A stretch of DNA of 64,000 nt, taken from contig NZ_JAMTCJ010000002.1 in assembly GCF_024171815.1 (NCBI RefSeq), forward strand, positions 1,116,001 through 1,180,000. The letters run 5' to 3'. This stretch comes from Williamsia maris. Its GTDB lineage: Bacteria > Actinomycetota > Actinomycetes > Mycobacteriales > Mycobacteriaceae. The notes beneath the pieces are model-generated. The model saw nothing but the letters and a program-made list of their open reading frames with translations. It was not told the DNA's origin and did not search any database. Both the position numbers and the translations under genes were made by a program. Below, one piece after another: positions 42,210 to 56,455 of the stretch (the first letter of the stretch is position 1; each line of letters begins with the position of its first letter).

Positions 42210-42264
42210 CACCGGGGCGAAACTCGCTGGCCAGGCGCGCCGACCGTCGGACAGGATGGGCGTC

Positions 42265-42885
42265 ATGAGCACCGACGCGTTGAGCCGACTACACCGCAAA
42301 CCCGACCGCGGCGGCGACCGAGCGCTGCTCGACGAGATCCTCGACGAGGTGAAGGTCGGCACGTTGTCGACGGTCGTCGACGGGTTGCCGTGGTCGGTGC
42401 CGATGCTGTTCGCCCGTGACGGTGACCGGATCCTGCTCCACGGATCGACCGGGGCCGGAGCGCTGCGGCATGTGGCGACCGGTGCTCCGGTGACGCTCAC
42501 CGCCTTCGTGCTCGATGGTCTCGTGGTCGCCGACACCCTCTTCGACCACTCGGCCAACTATCGTTCCGCCGTCGTCCGGGGAACGCTCGACGAGGTCGAC
42601 GTCGATCCATCGCATGCGCTGGACGTGCTGTCGGACAAGCTGATCCCGGGCCGAACCGACGAGGTGCGCGCCCACACCGGCAAAGAGATCGCCGCCACCG
42701 CGGTGCTGGCGTTGGAGATCCGGGACGGTCAGTGGATCACCAAGGCGCGCAGCGGACCGCCCGGCGAACCGTCGGAACCCGTCTGGACCGGGGTCGTTCC
42801 GACCCGGATCGTGTACGGAGAGCCTGTCGGTGCCACGGACGGCGAGGTCCCTGCGTCGGTGCGGGGCCTGACGACCCGCGACTGA
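42265..42885 (+). CDS. Pyridoxamine 5'-phosphate oxidase-like flavoprotein
   Basis: This is a 206-residue split-barrel FMN-binding protein. Seen features are VGTLSTVVDGLPWSVPMLFARDGDRILLHGS, the FDHSANYRSAVVRGTLDEV segment and the closing GEPSEPVWTGVVPTRIVYGEP. Members of this branch (FlaRed/Flavin-nucleotide-binding type) bind FMN or F420; the reaction is unknown. Either the ATG at 42256 or at 42265 may start it; the second has better family agreement. Confidence 0.85.
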   Translation: MSTDALSRLHRKPDRGGDRALLDEILDEVKVGTLSTVVDGLPWSVPMLFARDGDRILLHGSTGAGALRHVATGAPVTLTAFVLDGLVVADTLFDHSANYRSAVVRGTLDEVDVDPSHALDVLSDKLIPGRTDEVRAHTGKEIAATAVLALEIRDGQWITKARSGPPGEPSEPVWTGVVPTRIVYGEPVGATDGEVPASVRGLTTRD

Positions 42886-42933
42886 CCCCGCTCGTGGGGT
42901 GTGACCACGGTTCATTCCGTTACCGACACTCAC

Positions 42934-42963
42934 ATTTACATTTCGTATGCAATCGGTTTCTAC
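42934..42963 (+). promoter_or_regulatory. Promoter-like element before the small VCBS gene
   Basis: The element begins ATTTACATTT and contains TGCAATC before a TTCTAC hexamer. TTTACA (42935-42940) and TTCTAC (42958-42963) are 17 bases apart, as for -35 and -10 boxes. It aligns with the element at 47284-47312 in 23 of 29 positions. It ends about 10 bases before the ATG at 42973. Confidence 0.6.
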
Positions 42964-42972
42964 CCTTGCCGC

Positions 42973-43695
42973 ATGAGTACCGGATGCGTCAGCGCGACGA
43001 TGATGCGCCACCCGCACACGAACAATCCCGTCCGCCGGGCGGCGGAATGGTTCCGTTGCCGGTTCGGTCCGACGGCGACCGAGATGGGTGCGCAGAGCGT
43101 CGACACGCTGACCGGCGCCGTCACCGGTCGCGTCCGGTTCGTTAGCCGTTCCGATACCCCGCTCGCCGTCGGTGTCGGCGCCGCGAGCGACGGGACCGTG
43201 TTCGTGGAGACCGACGGGACCTACGTCTACGCCCCGATCTCCGCGGCACGCCACAAGGTGCGCCAGGCCGGTGTATCCGGCACCGACCGGTTCACGCTCA
43301 CCGCACGCAACCGCTTCGGCCGGTGCGCGGTGACGGTCCGGGTGCCGATCGTCCCGACCAACCGGGCGCCGTTGCTCGGGTCGGTGTCGGTGAACGTCCC
43401 GGATCGCGTCACCGGCGCGGTCACGGGATCCGTGTGCGCACTCGACCGGGAGGCCGACGCGGTCACCTGGTCCGCGTCGCGCCCACACCGGGGTCTGGTG
43501 ATGATGGCCTGCGACGGGACCTTCGTCTACGTGCCCACCCCGGAGGCGCGGGTGGATGCGGCGGCCCGCGGTGGGTCGACCAGCACCGCACACCACGACT
43601 CTTTCCTCATCGTCGCCGGCGACGGGCACGACGGGGTCACCTCGACCGAGGTGGTCGTCGCGATCAGCCCGGCGACGAATGCGCCGGTCGGCTGA
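42973..43695 (+). CDS. Small two-module VCBS/Ig-like protein, paralogue of the giant adhesin
   Basis: This 240-residue protein consists of a short leader and two VCBS/Ig-like modules: about 40-128 (DTLTGAVTGRVRF...DGTYVYAPI...DRFTLTARNRFGRCAVTVRVPIVP) and about 129-235 (DRVTGAVTGSVCALD...DGTFVYVPTPEAR...DSFLIVAGDGHDG). The NPVRRAAEWFRCRFGP lead-in resembles the NPLGDLVAAVFRRFQSVF segment of the 2,018-residue protein. Unlike that protein it has no visible signal peptide or Ser/Thr-rich stalk. It also has several cysteines, and its repeats are more diverged. The ATG at 42973 is chosen because the longer frame runs through the promoter element. Confidence 0.75.
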   Translation: MSTGCVSATMMRHPHTNNPVRRAAEWFRCRFGPTATEMGAQSVDTLTGAVTGRVRFVSRSDTPLAVGVGAASDGTVFVETDGTYVYAPISAARHKVRQAGVSGTDRFTLTARNRFGRCAVTVRVPIVPTNRAPLLGSVSVNVPDRVTGAVTGSVCALDREADAVTWSASRPHRGLVMMACDGTFVYVPTPEARVDAAARGGSTSTAHHDSFLIVAGDGHDGVTSTEVVVAISPATNAPVG

Positions 43696-46600
43696 TCGGA
43701 CGCAACGCGTCGATTCGGCGCCGCACCGCGGTGGCGGCGACGTCGTCGGCCAGGCGCCGTGCGCGTCCGATGGTCGCGTCCGATGCCTGTCCATCCCGTC
43801 TGACCTCGAGGAGAGTTGCGAGATAGGCGGTCTCGGCGTACCAGCCCATGAAGCCGCGTCGCTCGTGTTCGGTGAAGGCGACGTCGAGGTGGGCGGCGGC
43901 CCGGTCGAATCGACCGAGTGCGATCGCCAGTTCGGTCAGGTGATGGTCGACGACGCCGTAGATCGACGCCCACGTGATGGTGCTCTCGCCGGAGTGATCG
44001 AGGAGGAGGTCGTAGGCGATCTGGCAGACCTCGGCGTTCCCCACCTGCGCGGCCGCGCGCCCGATGGTGGCGATGGTGGCCAGCCACATGTGGTTCCTGG
44101 GGATCTCGTTGATCCGTCGCCGGTCGTACCAGTCGACGAGTTCGACCGCGGCGCCACGGTTCCCGACGTCGACGTACGCGGTCGCGAGGCAGACGCGGTA
44201 GGTGTCGACGATGTCGAGGCGCTCGATGATGCCGTCGGCCGCGGCCACGATCTCGGACATGTCGCCACGCAACGTCCGAAGGGCGAACAGCTGACCCAGC
44301 AGACGGCCGTAGGTGTAGGTGACCGCGGGTGAGGCGGGGATGTCGCGTAGCGCATCGAACGTCGATTCACACCGCTGGAGTCGACCGGCGGCCAGATCGA
44401 TCGAGAAGTCGATGTTGCGCACCAGCCAGGCCAACTCCGGGTCACGGGACACCCGTGCCGGGGTCAGTCCGGATCTCGTGCGTGCGGCAGCGGTGAGGTG
44501 TCCGTACTCGATCTGGTTGCGCGCGATCCACGTCGACATCAACGCGTCGACCCGCCGCGCCGGTGAATCGTCGAGCACGGTCATCAGCTCGGTGTACGCG
44601 GCGCGTCGCATCTCCGTGCAGAGCGGCGCCCGCAGGGCCACCAGGACCGCGGACAGGGCTGCGACGAGCGCCTCCTGGTCGCCGGAGACACGCGCCGCCC
44701 CGATGGATCGTGTCAGCAGATCGCGGAGCACGCGCGAATCGGCCAACCAGAGAAGCTCGATGGCCAACTGCGCCAACAGGCGCGCGGCCGCGGATCCGTC
44801 ACCGTGACCGTCTGACTCGAGGACATGGAGCGCGTCGTAGAGGGTGTCGATCCGCTCGTGATCGGAGTGGATGTGCACGTAGAGGGTGCCCGGCTGGTCG
44901 TTCGCCAGCGTCGCCGTCACCTGTAATTCGGTGTCGCCCAGCCGTTTGGCCATCGTGACCGCATCGAACAGCGTGGGTCGGAACGCCGGGTCACGCGCTT
45001 TGCGCTGTGCGCGACCGAGGTCGACGAGCAGCCGACATCGTTGGGCCGAATCGCCACGCGGGAGAAGTTGCTCGGCCGCACTCGTGTAGAACACCACCGC
45101 GTCCTCGTAGGCGCCGATCGACATCGCGCTGTCGCCGGCCCTGCGGGAGAACTCGGCTGCGCGCGGGCGCTCGGAGTCCAGGCCACGGCTGAAGTGGTAG
45201 GCGAGCCGGGAGTAGTCCTCGGCGGCCGTGACACCACCCAGATGCTCCGAGGTCCGCGCCACCCGGGTGTGCATCTCCGCTCGCCTGCGGCCGGTGACGC
45301 CCTCGTAGACTGCCTCCTGCACCAGCGGGTGGCGCAACCGGACTTTGGTTTCCGTCGGGTTCTCGGTCACGAGCCGGTTGCGCACCAGCTCGTCGAGCGC
45401 GTCGGCGAACGCGATGTCGTCGAGATCGGATGCGACGGAGCGCAACACGAGACGCTGCGACACCATGCCGACCACCGAGCACAGTTGCAGCAGCACGAGC
45501 GCGGCAGGGGACAGCAGTCGCTCCCGCTGGGCGACAGACTCGGCGACCGACGCAGGTAGCGTGCCGCCGGCACCCGGTTCGTAGGAACCGATCAGCGAGG
45601 CCACGAACAGCGGGAGCCCGTCCGTGCGTTCGTAGAGGGTGACCGGATCGAGGGCGGTGTCCGCGGCGTCGACCAGCGCACCGATCTCGGCGAGGCTGAA
45701 CCCACCCAGATGCAGGCGCTGCACCCCGCTCGACCGGGTCGGCGCCGCCAGGGTCGCGCGGATGTCCGCGCCGTCCGCGAGCTCGTCACGCACTGTCGCG
45801 ACCACGCACAGCCGGCTCTGCTCGGATGCGTGGATCAGGTAGCGGATGACCGCCAGCGTCGCGGCCGACGCCCAGTGCAGGTCGTCGATCACCAGAACCG
45901 TCGGCCCCGACCTGACCGGCGACGTCAACCAGTCGAGAACGGCGGTCATGATGACTGCGCGCTCATCGACTTCGGTTCGTGCGGGTGCCATCTCACCGAA
46001 GCGTCGCACTGCGTTGGGGACCAGGCGCAGGATGTCGGTGCCGTTGCTGCGCAACCATTGACGGGCCTCGGTCATGCCCAACGCGTCGAGTTCGCGACCG
46101 ACGGCCTCGACGAACGGTTCGAAGGGCACGACGGCCTCGTCGCTGCACCGGCCGAAAAGGATGTGGGCCCCGGCCGCATGCGCACGCCTCATGACCTCGA
46201 GCGCGATGGTGGTCTTGCCGCTGCCGGCCTCCCCGGCGACGACGACGAACTGTCCGCGGCCCCGGTCGGCACGACCGATGGCCTCGGTGATGGTCACCAA
46301 CTCGGCTCCGCGACCGACGAAGTCGTCGCCGATGTCGATGGTCGGCGATGGCACCCCAGAGCCGGCCAACGCAGAGCCGGGCACCGCAGAGTCGGGCTCG
46401 TCGGCCCGGAGTATCTGCAGGTAGAGGGATTCGGTCTCGGCCGACGGCGCGACCCCCAGCTCGTCGTCGAGGATCTGACGGCACCGGGCGGCCACCTGCA
46501 GTGCCTGCCCTCGTTCGCCCAGGGCCAGGTATCCGCTCATCGCCGTCCGATAGGCGCTCTCGCGCAACGGGTCGAGTGCGAGGAGCCCCTCGGCCGATGC

Positions 46601-47161
46601 GATCGCGCGCGCGGGTTCGCCCAGTGTCAGTGACCCGCTCGCATCGATCTCCAGAGCCCGTCGGCGCAGGTGTTGGGTCTCGGTGCGGACGTCGTCGGCC
46701 CACGCCCCCGCGGCGCCGGCCAGAGCGGGGGCGGCGGTGAGGTCGAGCGCTCGGCGGGCGTTCGCTACGGCCACACCCAGGTCGGCGTCGGGTGCGGCGC
46801 AGTAGCGCCGGACGAGTTCGATGTCGGTCATGAACCCGTCGGGCAGCGACAGCCGCACATTTCCGCCGCGCGACCGGACACTGCCGGCCGGCATCGCCGC
46901 CAACTCCATGGTGTCGCGCACGCGGGAGAGCACGCCGCGCAGAGCGGCGTTCCAGGACTGGGGGCGGTTGTCGGACCAGAGCAGACCCGCGAGCTCGTCC
47001 TGTGGGATCTCCCGGTGCCGGTTGACCGCCAGGTAGGCCAAGACCTCGACGCAGCGCGCGCCCCCGACCACCCGCGGGTGGACGACGTGTCCCCCGTGCA
47101 CGACCCGCACCTCGCCGATGAGGCGAATCGCAACCGCCTCGTCCAATTCCATTGTCACCAC
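43664..47161 (-). CDS. BTAD/SARP-type AAA-ATPase TPR transcriptional regulator
   Basis: This regulator has 1,165 residues. The N-terminus is an OmpR-like winged helix (IRLIGEVRVVHGG...GGARCVEVLAYLAVNRHREIPQDELAGLLW, about residues 10-100). A BTAD helical domain follows (about 110-250, ALDPLRESAYRTAMSGYLALGERGQALQVAARC). An AAA/STAND ATPase has Walker A VVAGEAGSGKTTIA (about 310) and Walker B TVLVIDDLHWASAATLAV (about 425). A long TPR-like C-terminal half ends it. Such proteins activate transcription in response to an unknown ligand. The gene is divergent from the giant adhesin gene, and its last 32 bases overlap the end of the small VCBS gene. GTG at 47161 or ATG at 47152 starts it. Confidence 0.9.
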   Translation of the reverse strand: MVTMELDEAVAIRLIGEVRVVHGGHVVHPRVVGGARCVEVLAYLAVNRHREIPQDELAGLLWSDNRPQSWNAALRGVLSRVRDTMELAAMPAGSVRSRGGNVRLSLPDGFMTDIELVRRYCAAPDADLGVAVANARRALDLTAAPALAGAAGAWADDVRTETQHLRRRALEIDASGSLTLGEPARAIASAEGLLALDPLRESAYRTAMSGYLALGERGQALQVAARCRQILDDELGVAPSAETESLYLQILRADEPDSAVPGSALAGSGVPSPTIDIGDDFVGRGAELVTITEAIGRADRGRGQFVVVAGEAGSGKTTIALEVMRRAHAAGAHILFGRCSDEAVVPFEPFVEAVGRELDALGMTEARQWLRSNGTDILRLVPNAVRRFGEMAPARTEVDERAVIMTAVLDWLTSPVRSGPTVLVIDDLHWASAATLAVIRYLIHASEQSRLCVVATVRDELADGADIRATLAAPTRSSGVQRLHLGGFSLAEIGALVDAADTALDPVTLYERTDGLPLFVASLIGSYEPGAGGTLPASVAESVAQRERLLSPAALVLLQLCSVVGMVSQRLVLRSVASDLDDIAFADALDELVRNRLVTENPTETKVRLRHPLVQEAVYEGVTGRRRAEMHTRVARTSEHLGGVTAAEDYSRLAYHFSRGLDSERPRAAEFSRRAGDSAMSIGAYEDAVVFYTSAAEQLLPRGDSAQRCRLLVDLGRAQRKARDPAFRPTLFDAVTMAKRLGDTELQVTATLANDQPGTLYVHIHSDHERIDTLYDALHVLESDGHGDGSAAARLLAQLAIELLWLADSRVLRDLLTRSIGAARVSGDQEALVAALSAVLVALRAPLCTEMRRAAYTELMTVLDDSPARRVDALMSTWIARNQIEYGHLTAAARTRSGLTPARVSRDPELAWLVRNIDFSIDLAAGRLQRCESTFDALRDIPASPAVTYTYGRLLGQLFALRTLRGDMSEIVAAADGIIERLDIVDTYRVCLATAYVDVGNRGAAVELVDWYDRRRINEIPRNHMWLATIATIGRAAAQVGNAEVCQIAYDLLLDHSGESTITWASIYGVVDHHLTELAIALGRFDRAAAHLDVAFTEHERRGFMGWYAETAYLATLLEVRRDGQASDATIGRARRLADDVAATAVRRRIDALRPISRPAHSSPG

Positions 47162-47283
47162 ACCACAGGCGGCCAGGACTGGGATTGCCGGTCGGTGCGC
47201 GCGATGCGGGCTGGTGCATCCACGTCCATTTAATCGAGCATAAACAACTGGCGATACCTAAGGAAATCATTGCTCCGGCGTAG

Positions 47284-47313
47284 ATTTACATTTTCTTTGC
47301 AATCCGTTCTTAG
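47284..47313 (+). promoter_or_regulatory. Promoter-like element before the giant adhesin gene
   Basis: This AT-rich element begins ATTTACATTT and contains TGCAATC. TTTACA (47285-47290) is spaced 17 bases from TCTTAG (47308-47313). It shares 23 of 29 bases with the element before the small VCBS gene. It lies 126 bases upstream of the giant gene ATG and 123 bases upstream of the divergent regulator start. Confidence 0.6.
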
Positions 47314-47438
47314 TGTGTCGGCGTAGCCCCGGGTGGTTGTGCTCGTCGTCGAATGATCAGTGCAGAAGTTGCTGGTAGCGCGGTGTGTGGTGTCTGGTCC
47401 GGGTTGTGCGCGAGGGCGCACCGACGAAACAGGGATCG

Positions 47439-50400
47439 ATGAGTACTCACCGGGTGAACAATCGTGCGAAGGCCAAGGCTCGTGCCGCGAAGGCGGCGAA
47501 GGCGGGTCAGGGTCGGCATCGCAGTCCGCAGCATCACGAGGTGCCGACCTGGGTGAAGACCAGTGCGTTGACCGTCGGCTTGGGTGCGGTGCTGATCAGC
47601 GGATCAGGTCTCGCGAACGCCGAGACGGCGACCGGTGGCGGCGCGTCCTCGGGTGGGGCCAGTTCGTCAGACGATTCGTCGTCGACGACCCGGACGGTGT
47701 CGCCGGCGTCGACGTCGGCCGCTGATTCTGCGACCGGTTCGTCGACGAGTGCGGCGTCGGGCACCCAAACCGGGACCGCGGGGAGCGGTTCGACCTCCAC
47801 TACCAGCGACAGCTCGGGTGCGCCGAGCACGTCGAGCAGTACGGGTATCGGCGGGACCTCGACCACCACTCCGGCGCCAGAGGAGAAGTCGTCTGAGGGG
47901 TCGACTCCGACCTCGACCGGTTCGGGGTCGACGTCGGGTTCGGGCTCGACCGGGGCCACGGCGCCTGCTGCGTCGACGCCGCCCGCCTCGACGCCGCCCG
48001 CCTCGACGCCGACTGCATCGGGGTCGGCCGGCTCCTCGTCCGGTGGTTCGGGGTCGAGTGCTCCGACCACCGCACCGACAACACCGGCATCGACGTCGTC
48101 GGGCACGCCCGGCATCACGTCGGGTCCGTCGTCGACTCCGTTGATCCCGTCGTCGACGTTGCCGGTGATGGGTTCGGCTCCGGCCGTCACAACGACGGGT
48201 GGGGGTTCGTCGGCGGTGTCGCTGGCCTCGGTGTCGGCTGTGTCGTCGTCGGCTCCGATGGTCGCGCCGGCGTCACAGGCGGTGGTGACGCCGTTGACGG
48301 CGTTGGCCGCTGTCGTCCTGTCGATCTTCGGTCTCAACGCGGGCAATGCGTCGACGACGCCGGTCGCGCCGGTGGCTCCGCCGAATCCGCTGGGCGACTT
48401 GGTCGCTGCGGTGTTCCGTCGGTTCCAGTCGGTGTTCTCGCCGTACCCGACGGTGCAGGGCCCGCAGATGGTCGATCCGTTGACAGGTGTGGTGACCGGT
48501 AGTGCGCAGTTCACGAGCCCGTTCTGGTTGCCGCAGTGGTACACCGTGACTGCGCCGACCAACGGCACCGTCACCATCGACAAGAACGGCCGGTACGTCT
48601 ACACGCCGTCGAAGACAGCGCCGATCACCGTGACCGGCGATTCGTTCACCGTCACCGCGCGCAACTGGATCTCGAAGTCATCAGTGACCGTGCAGGTCCC
48701 GATCGTCGCGACTGCACCTCCGACGCCGACCACCCCTGTTGTCGGCACCCCGGACCCGACGTCCGGTGCGATCACCGGGTCGGTGTCGGCGGGATCGAGC
48801 AATGGCACCCCGGTCACCTACATCGCTCCGTCGGCGACGAGCACCAAGGGCGGGACGGTCACCGTCACCGCCGGAGGCGCCTACACCTACACGCCCACCG
48901 CCGATTCGCGCCATCAGGCCGCGAAGACCGGTGCGCCGGCGTCGGCGACGCAGGACACGTTCACGGTGAACGCGACCGACGGACGTGGCGCGACGACGCA
49001 GATCGTGGTCACCGTCCCGCTGACCCCGCTCAACGCGGCCCCCGTCGCTCCCGCCACTCAGCCTGCCGGACAGACCAACCCGGCCACGGGGGCGGTCACC
49101 GGGACGGTGACGGTCACCGACGGCGACAAGGACCCGGTGAAGTACACGGGTCCGACGACCACCGCGGGAGGTACCGGTTCGTTGACGGTCAACCCCGACG
49201 GCACCTACACCTACACCCCGACCGCGACCGCCCAGCACAACGCGGCGTCGGCAACAGGCGCGAAGAGTGACACGTTCACTATCGTTGCTGATGACGGTTT
49301 CGGTGGCACTACCGAGATTGTGGTGACGGTCCCGATCACCGCGGTCAACGCCAATCCCGTTGGCGGCGTGCAGACGCCGGGGACCGTGGGTGCCGGTGGT
49401 GTGGTGAGTGGTGCGGTCACGACCACCGATGGTGACAACGACCCGGTGAAGTTCGCTCCGGCGACGACCACCAGCGCGAGCGGCACGTTCACGGTGAACG
49501 CGGACGGCAGCTACACCTACACCCCGACCGCTACGGCGCAGCACAACGCGGCCTCGGCGACGGGTGCGAAGAGCGACTCGTTCACCGTGGTCGCCGATGA
49601 CGGTTTCGGTGGCCGCACGGAGATTGTGGTGACGGTCCCGATCACTGCGGTCAACGCGAATCCCGTTGCCGAGGCTCCGACGCAGAGCGCCCCGGGTGTC
49701 GGTGGCGTGGTCACCGGCGCGGTGACGGTCACCGATGGCGACGGCGACACGCCCACCTACTCGGGCCCGACGGCCACCGCGGGAGGTACCGGTTCGTTGA
49801 CGGTCAACCCCGACGGCACCTACACCTACACCCCGACCGCGACGGCGCAGCACAACGCTGCGTCGCCCAACGGTGCCAAGACCGACACCTTCACCGTCGT
49901 CGTCGATGACGGTTTCGGTGGCACGACTCAGATCGTGGTGACGGTCCCGATCGCCGCAGTGAACGCGAATCCTGTTGCCGGCGTCCAGGCGCCCGGAACG
50001 GTGGGTGTCGGTGGTGTGGTGACCGGTGTGGTCACGACCACCGATGGCGACAACGACCCGGTGAAGTTCACTCCCGCGACGACCGTCAGCGCGAGCGGCA
50101 CGTTCACGGTGAACGCGGACGGCAGCTACACCTACACCCCGACCGCGGCGGCGCAGCACAACGCGGCCTCGGCGACGGGTGCGACGAGCGACTCGTTCAG
50201 CGTGGTCGCCGATGACGGTTTCGGTGGCCGCACGGAGATCCTGGTGACGGTACCCATCACCCCGGTCAACGCGGCTCCGGTGGTGTCGACGTCACCGTCG
50301 GTGTCGACGGTCGGCGTGGGCTACTTCCCGACCGGGGTACTGGTCGGGTCGGATGGTCGGACCTACGTCGTCAACCTGAGCAGCAATTCGGTGTCGGTGA

Positions 50401-53400
50401 TCGAGAACGGCGTCGTGGTCCAGACCATCGACGTGGGTAGCAGTCCACTCAGCGCCGCCGTCGGCTCGGACGGCAAGATCTACGTCACAAATCAGGGTGG
50501 CAACTCGGTGTCGGTGATCAACAACGGCGCGGTGGAGACGACGATCGATCTGGGTGTTCGTCCGGTCGGTATCGCGGCCGGAACTGACGGGCTCATCTAC
50601 GTGGCCACCGGCAGCGGCGTGTCGGTGATCAGCAATGGTGTGGTGGAGTACACGATTCCGCTCGGGGCCGGCCCGGACGGCATTGCAGTCGGCACGGACG
50701 GTCGGGTCTATGTCGCGCAGATGGGCGGCGGATCGGTCGCGGTTATCCGGAACGGCGTCGTGGAATCGACGATCACAGTGGGTGCCGGTCCGGACGGTGT
50801 CGCCGTCGGACCGGACGGCACCGTGTATGTCACCAACAGTCAGTCGAACTCGGTGTCGGTGATCAAAGACGGTGCGGTGGTGTCGACGATCTCCGTGGGC
50901 ACCACCCCGAATCGTGTTGCTGTGGGCCAGGACGGCACCGTGTATGTCACCAACAGCGGTTCCGGCACGGTGTCGGTGATCAAGAACGGTGTAGTCGAGT
51001 CGACCATCAACGGGTTCGACTTCCCCTTCGGCGTTGCGGTGGGTTCTGACGGCATCGTCTATGTCACCAACCTGTTCGGCAGCACCACAACGATCATCAG
51101 GCCCGCCGACGTCACGGTCGGGGACCCGGACAGCTCGACCGGGGCGGTGTCGGGAACGGTGCGGGGATCGGACGCCGATGGTGACACCCTCACCTTCAGC
51201 GGTTCCGGCGCAACAACTTCCGGTGCCGTGGTGATCGATCCCGCGAGCGGGAAGTTCATCTACACCCCGACTGATGCGGCGCGGCACACGGCGGCGTCGG
51301 CAACAGGCGCGAAGACCGACACCTTCACGGTCACGGTGACCGACGGTTTCGGCGGATCGACCCCGGTGACCGTGACGGTCAACATCAGTCCGGTCAACGC
51401 GCCGCCGACGGTCACAACGTCACCTACGGTGTCGACGGTCGGTGTGGGTACCACTCCGACCGGTGTCGCGGTCGGTGCGGATGGTCGGACGTATGTCGTC
51501 AATCTGAGTAGCAACTCGGTGTCGGTGATCAGCAACGGCGTCGTGGTCGAGACCATCGGCGTCGGCGGTGGTCCACTGAGTGCAGTGGCCGGTTCGGACG
51601 GCAAGATCTACGTCACCAATCAGGATGGCAACTCGTTGTCGGTGATCAACGACGGTGCGGTGGAGACGACGATCGATCTGGGTGTTCGGCCGGTCGGTAT
51701 CGCGGCCGGTACTGACGGGCTGGTGTATGTGGCCACCGGCAGCGGGGTTTCGGTGATCAGCAACGGCGTCGTGGAGTCCACGATCCCGGTCGGCGCCGGC
51801 CCTGATGGCATTGCAGTCGGTTCGGATGGACGGGTGTACGTCGCGCAGATGGGCGGCGGATCGGTCGCGGTGATCAGGAACGGCGTCGTGGAGTCCACGA
51901 TCAAGGTGGGTAGTGGCCCAGATGGGATCGCAGCCGGGCCGGACGGCACGGTGTACGTCACCAACAGTCAGTCGAACACGGTGTCGGTGATCAAGAACGG
52001 TGTGGTGGTGTCGACGATCGATGTGGGCATCAACCCGAACCGCGTTGCGGTGGGCCCGGACGGCCGGGTGTACGTCAGCAACAGTTCGTCGAACACGGTG
52101 TCGGTGATCAACAACGGTGTGGTCGAGTCGACCATCGGCGGGTTCTCCTTCCCGTTCGGTGTGGCGGTGGGGTCGGATGGCATCGTCTACGTCACCAATC
52201 TGGCCGGCGGCAGTGCCACGGTGATCACGCCCGCGGGTGCCACCGTCAGCATTCCCAGTGCCTCCACCGGGGCGGTCTCGGGCGTTGTTCGAGTCACGGA
52301 CACCGATGGCGACACCCTTACCTACAGCGGTTCCGGGGCAACGACTTCCGGTGCTGTGGTGATCGATCCGGCGACCGGGAAGTTCATCTACACCCCGACC
52401 GACGCGGCACGGCACACCGCGGCGTCGGCTGCGGGTGCGAAGACGGATGCGTTCACCGTCACAGTGGACGATGGCCACGGCGAATCAACCCAGGTGATGG
52501 TTACCGTCGACATCAGTCCGACCAATGCCGCGCCGACCGTCGGGACGCAGATGGCCGGGACGGCCAACGCCATCACCGGTGTCGTGACCGGAGTGGTGTC
52601 AGTGACCGACGGCGACAGCGATGTCCTCACCTACTCCGCCCCGGCGAGGTCCGTGGGCGGCGGTGCCGTGTCCATCGATGCCCAGGGGAAATACACCTTC
52701 ACTCCGACGGATGCGGCGCGGGTGATCGCGACGTCAATGACGACGGATTCCTTCGTCGTCACCGTGTCCGACGGCCACGGCGGCGAGGTGCCGGTCTCAG
52801 TCGTTGTGACTGTTGCGCCTACTGCTTCGACCGGGGTCGCCGGGTCCACAGGGGTGTCGGGACCCGCGGGCAGCTCTGGCGCGACGGGCGTGACCGGCAC
52901 GGCGGGGCCAGATTTCGGGGCGATCGGTCTGGCCGGCCTGCCCTCGAACCCGACGAACGGTGCGGTGTCGGGTTTCCTGATCCCGGCGAACACCAGTGCA
53001 GGACCGTTCTCGTACTCAGCGCCGGCGAACAGTCCGGCGACCGGATCGGTGACGGTCACCTCCGGCGGTGTCTGGACGTTCACGCCCACCACGGCCGCAC
53101 AAGCGGCCGCAGCATCGGGCGGGGCCACCACCGATTCTTTCGTCATCACCGTGTCCAACGCGCAGGGCGCATCGACAGCTGTGACCATCGAGGTCCCGAT
53201 CACCACTGTCGCCTCGGGTACCGGCCCCGGCACGAAAGCCTCCTACTGCACCGGCAGACTCGTGACCACGTCCTCGACGCCGAGGTCATCGGGCGGCGTA
53301 TACGTCCCCCCATCGGGCGGCCTATATGTTGACGTCGGATCGGGCGCTATTTATAACGTCCCATCGGGCGGCGTGAATGTCCCCCCACCGGGCCCCGGGT

Positions 53401-53495
53401 TCCCGACCACCACGCCCGGACAGTTCAGCCTGCCGCCTGTGTTCAACGCGCCGACCACCACCAGCAACTACGTCGTTGACTGCGAGGTCCGCTGA
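47439..53495 (+). CDS. Giant exported VCBS-module / beta-propeller repeat protein (2,018 aa)
   Basis: A basic extended N-region (MSTHRVNNRAKAKARAAKAAK) precedes a signal segment with likely cleavage after ANA at residue 61. A Ser/Thr/Gly/Pro-rich stalk (62 to about 280) and a hydrophobic stretch (TALAAVVLSIFGLNAG) follow. Six VCBS/Ig-like modules occupy about 343-947, with recurring TGAVTGTV, DGTYTYTPTA and DTFTVVADDGFGG. Then come a seven-bladed YVTN-type propeller (950-1226), module 7, a second propeller (1327-1598) and modules 8-9. A collagen-like GxxG stretch, module 10 and a tail with SGGVYVPP repeats and two Cys end it. No LPXTG or anchoring TM helix is visible at the C-terminus. It is probably a surface or matrix adhesin; the ligand is unknown. 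Confidence 0.9.
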   Translation: MSTHRVNNRAKAKARAAKAAKAGQGRHRSPQHHEVPTWVKTSALTVGLGAVLISGSGLANAETATGGGASSGGASSSDDSSSTTRTVSPASTSAADSATGSSTSAASGTQTGTAGSGSTSTTSDSSGAPSTSSSTGIGGTSTTTPAPEEKSSEGSTPTSTGSGSTSGSGSTGATAPAASTPPASTPPASTPTASGSAGSSSGGSGSSAPTTAPTTPASTSSGTPGITSGPSSTPLIPSSTLPVMGSAPAVTTTGGGSSAVSLASVSAVSSSAPMVAPASQAVVTPLTALAAVVLSIFGLNAGNASTTPVAPVAPPNPLGDLVAAVFRRFQSVFSPYPTVQGPQMVDPLTGVVTGSAQFTSPFWLPQWYTVTAPTNGTVTIDKNGRYVYTPSKTAPITVTGDSFTVTARNWISKSSVTVQVPIVATAPPTPTTPVVGTPDPTSGAITGSVSAGSSNGTPVTYIAPSATSTKGGTVTVTAGGAYTYTPTADSRHQAAKTGAPASATQDTFTVNATDGRGATTQIVVTVPLTPLNAAPVAPATQPAGQTNPATGAVTGTVTVTDGDKDPVKYTGPTTTAGGTGSLTVNPDGTYTYTPTATAQHNAASATGAKSDTFTIVADDGFGGTTEIVVTVPITAVNANPVGGVQTPGTVGAGGVVSGAVTTTDGDNDPVKFAPATTTSASGTFTVNADGSYTYTPTATAQHNAASATGAKSDSFTVVADDGFGGRTEIVVTVPITAVNANPVAEAPTQSAPGVGGVVTGAVTVTDGDGDTPTYSGPTATAGGTGSLTVNPDGTYTYTPTATAQHNAASPNGAKTDTFTVVVDDGFGGTTQIVVTVPIAAVNANPVAGVQAPGTVGVGGVVTGVVTTTDGDNDPVKFTPATTVSASGTFTVNADGSYTYTPTAAAQHNAASATGATSDSFSVVADDGFGGRTEILVTVPITPVNAAPVVSTSPSVSTVGVGYFPTGVLVGSDGRTYVVNLSSNSVSVIENGVVVQTIDVGSSPLSAAVGSDGKIYVTNQGGNSVSVINNGAVETTIDLGVRPVGIAAGTDGLIYVATGSGVSVISNGVVEYTIPLGAGPDGIAVGTDGRVYVAQMGGGSVAVIRNGVVESTITVGAGPDGVAVGPDGTVYVTNSQSNSVSVIKDGAVVSTISVGTTPNRVAVGQDGTVYVTNSGSGTVSVIKNGVVESTINGFDFPFGVAVGSDGIVYVTNLFGSTTTIIRPADVTVGDPDSSTGAVSGTVRGSDADGDTLTFSGSGATTSGAVVIDPASGKFIYTPTDAARHTAASATGAKTDTFTVTVTDGFGGSTPVTVTVNISPVNAPPTVTTSPTVSTVGVGTTPTGVAVGADGRTYVVNLSSNSVSVISNGVVVETIGVGGGPLSAVAGSDGKIYVTNQDGNSLSVINDGAVETTIDLGVRPVGIAAGTDGLVYVATGSGVSVISNGVVESTIPVGAGPDGIAVGSDGRVYVAQMGGGSVAVIRNGVVESTIKVGSGPDGIAAGPDGTVYVTNSQSNTVSVIKNGVVVSTIDVGINPNRVAVGPDGRVYVSNSSSNTVSVINNGVVESTIGGFSFPFGVAVGSDGIVYVTNLAGGSATVITPAGATVSIPSASTGAVSGVVRVTDTDGDTLTYSGSGATTSGAVVIDPATGKFIYTPTDAARHTAASAAGAKTDAFTVTVDDGHGESTQVMVTVDISPTNAAPTVGTQMAGTANAITGVVTGVVSVTDGDSDVLTYSAPARSVGGGAVSIDAQGKYTFTPTDAARVIATSMTTDSFVVTVSDGHGGEVPVSVVVTVAPTASTGVAGSTGVSGPAGSSGATGVTGTAGPDFGAIGLAGLPSNPTNGAVSGFLIPANTSAGPFSYSAPANSPATGSVTVTSGGVWTFTPTTAAQAAAASGGATTDSFVITVSNAQGASTAVTIEVPITTVASGTGPGTKASYCTGRLVTTSSTPRSSGGVYVPPSGGLYVDVGSGAIYNVPSGGVNVPPPGPGFPTTTPGQFSLPPVFNAPTTTSNYVVDCEVR
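49041..50275. repeat. Tandem ~310-bp coding repeats (VCBS modules 3-6)
   Basis: Four successive modules of about 100-105 codons, starting near 49041, 49361, 49673 and 49981, keep long nearly identical DNA runs, for example around the GACGGCACCTACACCTACAC segments. This suggests recent duplication or gene conversion. Confidence 0.85.
50281..52535. repeat. ~1.1-kb duplicated unit (propeller plus VCBS module)
   Basis: Two successive units, about 50281-51411 and 51412-52535, each encode one seven-bladed propeller plus one VCBS module. They remain very similar at DNA level. Blades are about 39 codons long, so the region is also repetitive at a 117-base scale. Confidence 0.85.
53287..53387. repeat. 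24-27 bp minisatellite encoding SGG(V/L)YVPP repeats
   Basis: Four units near 53287, 53311, 53338 and 53362 share CATCGGGCGG. They encode SGGVYVPP, SGGLYVDVG, SGAIYNVP and SGGVNVPP near the protein C-terminus. Their A/T-rich codons (TATATGTT, TATTTATAAC) stand out against the GC-rich surroundings. Confidence 0.75.
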
Positions 53496-53575: not shown

Positions 53576-54354
53576 TCAGCGCCAGAAGACGACCAGGTTA
53601 TAGCCGATGGATGCCAATGTAGAACTGACACCTGACAACTCGAAGAACCAGTAGATGATGTCGAAGAAGGTCCGGTTCAGCGGCGGCAGCAACAGCACCA
53701 GGAACACGAGCAGGAAGCCGTACTGGCCGACCGGGGCGAGCTTGCGGCGCGTCTCCAGCGACAGATACGGCTCGATCGCGCCGTAGCCGTCGAAACCGGG
53801 GATCGGGATCAGGTTGAGCACGGCTGCGGTGATCTGCAGCAGCGCCAGCATGCCCAGCGCCGACCACAGGTTGATCGTCGCGGCATCGATCGAGTTGACC
53901 TTCGCACGGATCACGGTCAGCAGCACCACGCCCACGACGATGTTCGCGAACGGACCGGCCAACGACACGATCGTCCGCTGCGCCTTGGAGAACCCGGCCT
54001 GGTTCACGTACACCGCGCCGCCGGGAAAACCGATGCCGCCCAACAGGATGATCACCAGCGGCAGCGTGATCGACAACCCCGGATGGGCGTACTTCAGGGG
54101 ATTCAACGTGAGGTATCCGCGGTTCTCGGCATTTTTGTCGCCGAAGGCGAATGCGGTCACCGCGTGGCCGAACTCGTGAAGGCACAACGAGATCACCCAG
54201 CCGCCGATCACCAGCAGCAGGGCCCCGACGATGGACGTCGCGTTGCGGCCCGGTGTGGACTGCGCCAGCAACACCCCGCCGGCGACAGCGGCAGCGACCA
54301 CGCCGAGGAACACCGGCCCCGGTCGCACCGAGCGAGCGATCTGAGTCGCGGTGC

Positions 54355-54358
<4 letters not shown>
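53576..54358 (-). CDS. M50 site-2-protease-like membrane metalloprotease (Rv0359-like)
   Basis: This 260-residue protein has about six TM segments. The zinc motif HEFGH lies in WVISLCLHEFGHAVTAFAFGD (about residue 60). The second metal ligand region is NLIPIPGFDGYGAIEPYL (LxPxPxxDG, about residue 188). No PDZ domain is present. It would cut peptides within the membrane; the substrate is unknown. It overlaps the preceding Rv0358-like gene by four bases, matching the Rv0358-Rv0359 pair in M. tuberculosis. Confidence 0.9.

Positions 54359-56455
<2,097 letters not shown>

Follow-up and report, generated by a model that had tools for sequence, protein, structure and literature searches.

The locus described here raises the question of whether a large SARP-type regulator governs the two repeat-protein genes that lie on either side of it. 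It was found in a 64,000-nucleotide stretch of the 4.93 Mb genome of Williamsia maris (the stretch is called the window, and its source genome G000), in which the regulator gene is flanked by a small gene and a giant gene, both encoding VCBS/Ig-like modules (Table 1). An earlier note, made from the letters of the window, had proposed that the regulator controls both genes, and this prediction is supported by a SARP-type promoter element (the box) that the two genes share and that is rare elsewhere in the genome. The block probably belongs to a large-SARP regulon for surface and secreted proteins, and we consider it likely that it represents a local SARP regulon, in which the regulator turns on the giant gene, the small gene and an unlinked PA-IL-like gene through the box.

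Table 1. Features of the block and its borders, numbered from the first nucleotide of the window
Feature	Position	Strand	Basis or details
Left border gene, PPOX-like (Pyridox_ox_2)	42256..42885	+	Pfam 105.9 bits, cut-off 27
Predicted SARP box, small gene	42935..42966	+	TTTACAT-ttcg-TATGCAA-tcggtttc-TACCCT; -10 at 42961-42966
Small VCBS protein, 240 aa, two Ig-like modules	42973..43695	+	sequence, Pfam, model
Large SARP-type regulator, 1,162 aa	43664..47152	-	winged-helix/BTAD region, AAA_16 ATPase with Walker motifs, C-terminal half
Predicted SARP box, giant gene	47285..47316	+	TTTACAT-tttc-TTTGCAA-tccgttct-TAGTGT; -10 at 47311-47316
Giant VCBS/propeller protein, 2,018 aa from ATG	47439..53495	+	sequence, Pfam/TIGR matches
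Tandem propeller+VCBS blocks in giant gene	50129..52541	+	self-blastn, 50129-51413 vs 51257-52541, ~81% identical
Right border gene, M50 peptidase-like	53576..54490	-	Pfam 43.5 bits, cut-off 27.2

The element common to both VCBS genes reads TTTACAT-N4-TWTGCAA-N8-TANNNT. SARP promoters are described in a passage of PMC10936776 as carrying direct repeats spaced 11 or 22 bp, the 3' repeat being separated from the -10 by 8 bp, and both VCBS promoters match this published layout, their repeats having an 11-bp period and their second heptamer lying 8 bp from the -10. Reading TTTACA as the -35 of a -35/-10 promoter spaced by 17 bp was rejected, as its -10 was poor, whereas TANNNT placed 8 bp behind the second heptamer fitted all four promoters in G000 and its relative G001, where the small-gene box is identical. 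Only 6 bp separate the -10 from the ATG of the small gene, and thus its transcript is probably leaderless; in the giant gene this distance is 122 bp. The small gene had earlier been given a start at 42934, which had to be abandoned because ATT is found at that position; the start at 42973 is the conserved one, and the stretch before it holds the promoter element, with lower conservation upstream of the element between G000 and G001. A start at the GTG at 42901 was likewise discarded, the first part of that longer frame diverging between the species and the part after it containing the box.

By its sequence, the regulator is a large SARP resembling AfsR and EmbR. Matches to BTAD (71.6 bits, Pfam cut-off 22.1) and AAA_16 (96.4 bits, cut-off 32.6) were accompanied by Walker-type motifs at residues 310 and 422. 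AfsR aligns with residues 9-252 (E 6.7e-13) and EmbR (2fez) with residues 30-252, and a profile comparison also indicated this homology. At E<=0.01 the protein matched no separate Pfam DNA-binding domain, no Pfam TPR family and no GerE/LuxR family, so that the C-terminal helix-turn-helix of LAL regulators proper was not recognized. Of the BTAD-AAA-TPR architecture assigned to it before, the first two parts thus stood and the TPR part was not confirmed; likewise, the reported 1,165 residues are obtained only from the GTG at 47161, the ATG at 47152 giving 1,162. Homologues were detected in 9 of 151 relatives at E<=1e-100 and in 20 of 401 genomes of the family at E<=1e-150, with 70-77% identity in three Mycobacterium/Mycolicibacterium records. 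A DNA-recognition segment of 22 residues is identical in the window regulator and in those of loci L026 and L029, and differs at one position in G001 and at three in L027. G001 carries a tandem regulator pair (L031 8720-15673) with 58% identity between the two copies, and just one copy is a close orthologue (91%) of that in the window. As to autoregulation, no strong box faces the regulator within the window; in G001 one does (L031 8635, + strand), scoring 20.5 bits, or 23.0 bits with a matrix made from sites of other genera.

Among known regulators, AfsR of Streptomyces coelicolor likewise joins a SARP region to a nucleotide-binding domain, and in the afs box, too, direct repeats with an 11-bp period are placed 8 bp from the -10. 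However, the heptamer in the window is TTTACAT/TTTGCAA and not of the CGTTTATC type given for the afs box in passages of PMC5930380/PMC10972967, and the neighbours and predicted targets of the window regulator, in which TPR was not confirmed, are surface or secreted proteins. EmbR of Mycobacterium (2fez) shares the homologous SARP fold, but has a C-terminal FHA domain (PMC10936776, in part) and no such ATPase part. The SARP-LAL proteins PimR, SanG and PolR are also large, with a SARP and an ATP-binding part and heptamer repeats with 4-bp spacers, whereas their known targets, in the sections of PMC5930380/PMC10972967 concerned with them, are antibiotic genes.

The box proved to be rare. At <=2 mismatches in 151 genomes, the seed motif yielded two sites in G000, two at the matching places in G001 and one each in four others. 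With an N-free motif, TTTACAWWWWWTTTGCA, 13 sites were obtained at <=2 mismatches in the eight genomes of the genus against none for the reversed pattern, and eight of the 13 precede a VCBS, lectin-like or PGRS-like gene (PGRS-like as judged by eye). At <=1 mismatch it occurred in 5 of the 151 genomes, four of which are among the nine bearing the regulator. G000 itself contained four sites at <=3 mismatches, namely those of the lectin-like, giant and small genes and a weak one (10.3 bits); such mismatch-limited scans would miss more diverged boxes. Scored with a matrix from eight sites of other genera, the giant-gene box ranked 1 of 127,936 window positions (15.0 bits).

The box also recurs where homologous regulators are found. 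Protein homology was used to pick 27 regulator loci (556,334 bp), in which the core TTRCA-N6-WTGCA matched 16 times, as compared with 18 matches summed over 25 other spacings, and 12 of the 16 lay outside G000 and G001; a strict core gave seven matches at the SARP spacing and none at other spacings. A matrix built from 12 sites, in which the small-gene box as a training site scores 28.8 bits, was then applied to 31 loci, i.e. the 27 and four others. At >=14 bits it detected 37 sites (the 12 training sites included) against four for the reversed matrix, the best of which reached 15.4 bits. At least one site was present at 19 of the 27 regulator loci, and of the four other loci L055 had one and L053, L054 and L056 none. 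A same-strand gene start lay within -120 to +450 at 27 of the 37 sites (random rate 0.209). Signal-peptide-like N-termini, scored by a crude rule, were found in 19 of 26 box-preceded genes and in 53 of 394 other locus genes (>=100 aa); gene calling relied on a simple script based on codon usage, so that starts may be wrong, and L088/L089 were counted as signal-peptide-like on a doubtful N-terminus.

Independent of the block in its location, a secreted lectin-like gene of G000, P0008, is preceded by a perfect box, 99 bp before the ATG. It is called lectin-like only, because its match to PA-IL (LecA) is below the Pfam cut-off (19.5 bits, E 0.0011, cut-off 22.5; LecA chain E 0.014). Members of this protein family were detected at E<=1e-8 in 10 of the 401 genomes, all ten among the 20 bearing the regulator, and within the genus in six of six genomes with the regulator and neither of the two without it. 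The lectin-like gene adjoins the regulator in G294 and G373, in divergent orientation and with a box, and a strong box (27.2-32.3 bits) was present at five of the ten lectin-like genes.

Several observations weigh against the proposed regulon. No site was found at eight of the 27 regulator loci (L032, L035, L037, L038, L085, L091, L097 and L098), the small-gene box ranked only 7 of 127,936 (10.4 bits) with the other-genera matrix, and nothing above 5.1 bits was seen within ~1.5 kb of the other five lectin-like genes. The counts for co-occurrence of regulator and lectin-like gene are not independent of kinship, which the hypergeometric value of 7e-15 ignores. Five of the 13 genus sites misfit (two in G007 and one each in G004 C12, G002 and G005 C99); the C99 site scores 35.1 bits and yet precedes a gene without a signal peptide, and that of G002 scores 35.4 bits in a genome without the regulator at E<=1e-100. 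At <=3 mismatches, a noisy threshold, the genus count was merely 32 against 19 in the control. This last result would suit a chance resemblance of two AT-rich promoter stretches in a GC-rich genome, the SARP layout being coincidental, but the spacing specificity, the reversed-matrix control and the lack of control sites at <=2 mismatches make such a coincidence extremely improbable.

The strong site in G002, along with the presence of two further BTAD genes in G000, would instead be expected if another regulator, for example one of these two BTAD proteins, bound the element, so that the SARP would be a mere neighbour and the VCBS promoters would be alike by paralogy. We regard this as unlikely, since in other genera, too, the element is found at orthologous regulators, where the genes behind it are unrelated, the occurrence of the lectin-like family follows that of the regulator in ten of ten cases, and the recognition segments of the two other G000 SARPs are unlike that of the window regulator. 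The G002 site (L118 1501) and one in G007 (L057 1501, 32.0 bits) have similar surroundings, both facing an open frame on the opposite strand.

For the local SARP regulon the following mechanism is proposed. A presumed signal would switch on the ATPase and the C-terminal part of the regulator, which would gate its DNA-bound activity. Two adjacent SARP domains would occupy the 11-bp repeats TTTACAT/TWTGCAA, which lie 8 bp upstream of the -10; standing in for a good -35, they would contact and recruit RNA polymerase, as is the case with AfsR. We infer that the regulator binds the box and activates transcription in this way, the putative targets in G000 being the giant VCBS/propeller, the small VCBS and the unlinked secreted PA-IL-like protein. 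The regulator clade and the box appear to have been retained in relatives, where different genes have come to lie behind the box, most of them again encoding secreted or surface proteins. Alternatively, the regulator could be a repressor, or could serve an antibiotic-type pathway elsewhere, the boxes of the VCBS genes not reflecting its main function. Although most of the SARPs described serve antibiotic clusters (PMC10936776 and PMC5930380/PMC10972967), and some loci of the clade adjoin transporters or enzymes without a box, the position of the box suits an activator that replaces the -35, and no biosynthetic family was found among the neighbour genes searched with Pfam; both versions thus seem very unlikely.

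If the activating regulon is real, a conserved Mycobacteriales SARP clade with its own box and a secreted/surface regulon would widen the roles of the SARP family, the box would provide a sequence handle for finding such genes, and what large SARPs sense would become testable away from antibiotic clusters. No SARP/BTAD control of a surface or secreted regulon appeared among the literature matches listed, which does not establish its absence from print. A non-antibiotic setting is also described, in part of PMC8213781, for BTAD proteins of extracellular contractile injection loci, and this injection-system paper was the one match listed for VCBS together with a transcriptional activator domain; the window differs in that no injection-system gene was found among the neighbour genes searched (Pfam).

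The genes behind the boxes vary among relatives. A box precedes the giant VCBS protein in G000 and G001 and the small one in the same two genomes. Giant relatives were sought with the N-terminal 68 aa as query, which at E<=1e-5 gave matches in 4 of 61 genomes. Two of these relatives are in G006 (C7 and C4), both unlinked to the regulator; C7, which is not in the core-motif list of regulator loci, has a box, and C4 has none. In G004, a second regulator (L036 4825-11925), 46% identical and on another contig than the copy at the junction described below, is flanked on both sides by box-preceded VCBS/propeller proteins of 513 and 566 aa, neither having a signal-peptide-like start by the crude rule. 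G188 and G286 each have a VCBS-like gene of 230 aa adjoining the regulator (Big_9 below cut-off at 17 bits), and a 51% relative is present in G165; the VCBS-like gene of L090 had been missed by the gene caller and was found with tblastn. Other box-preceded genes encode an 859-aa protein in G006 (with a similar-looking protein in G005), a CDGP-domain protein and a double-ABM protein in mycobacterial records, small secreted-looking proteins and PA-IL-like proteins. The boxes before the double-ABM protein, which has a membrane-like C-terminus, show 0 and 1 mismatch (L027 17806 - and L029 2016 -). Co-occurrence of the three genes, by which the earlier note would have its idea checked, was mixed: the full block is present in G000 and G001 and an analogous one in G004, and, apart from the VCBS-like genes of G188, G286 and G165, the other loci examined have other partners. 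Its description of the regulator as dedicated to surface repeat proteins turned out to be too narrow, for VCBS or VCBS-like neighbours are seen in G000, G001, G004, G188 and G286 and mostly other proteins elsewhere; the regulator is thus not VCBS-specific.

The three genes of the block are real, as had been assumed, with open frames, domain matches and dN/dS values between G000 and G001 of 0.29 (small), 0.31 (giant) and 0.12 (regulator), which indicate coding beyond chance. Coordinates and strands also agree with the orientations claimed, the regulator being divergent from the giant gene and convergent with the small one, with which it has a 32-bp tail-to-tail overlap (43664-43695). The giant protein has the length and the VCBS and propeller repeats attributed to it: a basic N-terminus, a signal-peptide-like stretch and a Ser/Thr-rich segment are followed by VCBS/Ig modules and propeller repeats, comprising VCBS repeats (TIGR01965, 225.7 bits, domain cut-off 15.5), Big_9/cadherin-like modules and YVTN/Vgb propeller repeats. 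Its tandem repeat is also found in G001 and is a likely spot for copy-number change. The small protein matched Big_9 (35.7 bits, cut-off 23.6), VCBS (TIGR01965, 24.7 bits as a 264-aa frame, against the same domain cut-off) and two hand-chosen segments of the giant protein (41% and 37% identity), in support of the view that the two genes are paralogous in their modules. Its model showed two beta modules with the first 34 residues disordered (mean pLDDT 73.6, from an alignment of three window sequences), and the closest solved structures were weakly similar Ig-like modules of adhesins and others (best TM 0.46). Large adhesins such as SiiE, Bap and SraP share such modules, but the giant protein has propeller blocks, no LPxTG-type sortase motif (LP.T[GANS]) and no C-terminal match over cut-off to the BapA/Bap/LapF model NF045619 (19.8 bits, cut-off 180). 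A role of the locus in adhesion or matrix formation is suggested by the modules only.

The small protein has no signal peptide recognizable by the crude N-terminal rule, and therefore its designation as a surface protein is unsupported. The VCBS/propeller proteins of this kind beside the regulator (the small ones in G000 and G001 and the 513- and 566-aa proteins in G004) could be cytoplasmic partners of the regulator in a feedback switch: as intracellular copies of the surface modules, they would attach to its ATPase or to its C-terminal part, and regulator output, and with it the production of surface proteins, would depend on what state the exported giant protein is in. We consider such a switch a distinctly doubtful proposition.

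The block had been placed between DUF3151 and M50 genes. This holds for the M50 side and is loose on the other, where FUSC, cation-efflux and PPOX genes intervene, so that the actual junction is PPOX-M50. Within the window no tRNA genes were found, nor any Rfam match at gathering scores. The border genes adjoin directly, with no block between them, in G002 and G003; this could reflect either insertion in the other genomes or loss in these two. The junctions of G004 and G005 contain the regulator and no called target gene; the frame looks broken in the DNA-binding part in G004 (L035 8282-11590) and after BTAD in G005 (L032 8343-11878), and in both genomes draft assembly errors are possible. At the G006 junction the regulator is accompanied by the 859-aa protein (PGRS 18.5 bits, below cut-off) and a 258-aa protein, and at that of G007 by a multicopper oxidase and small proteins. 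Multicopper-oxidase-like proteins of Tat type recur near regulators of the clade, at L034 (checked with Pfam) and, as judged by eye, at L086, L092 and L096.

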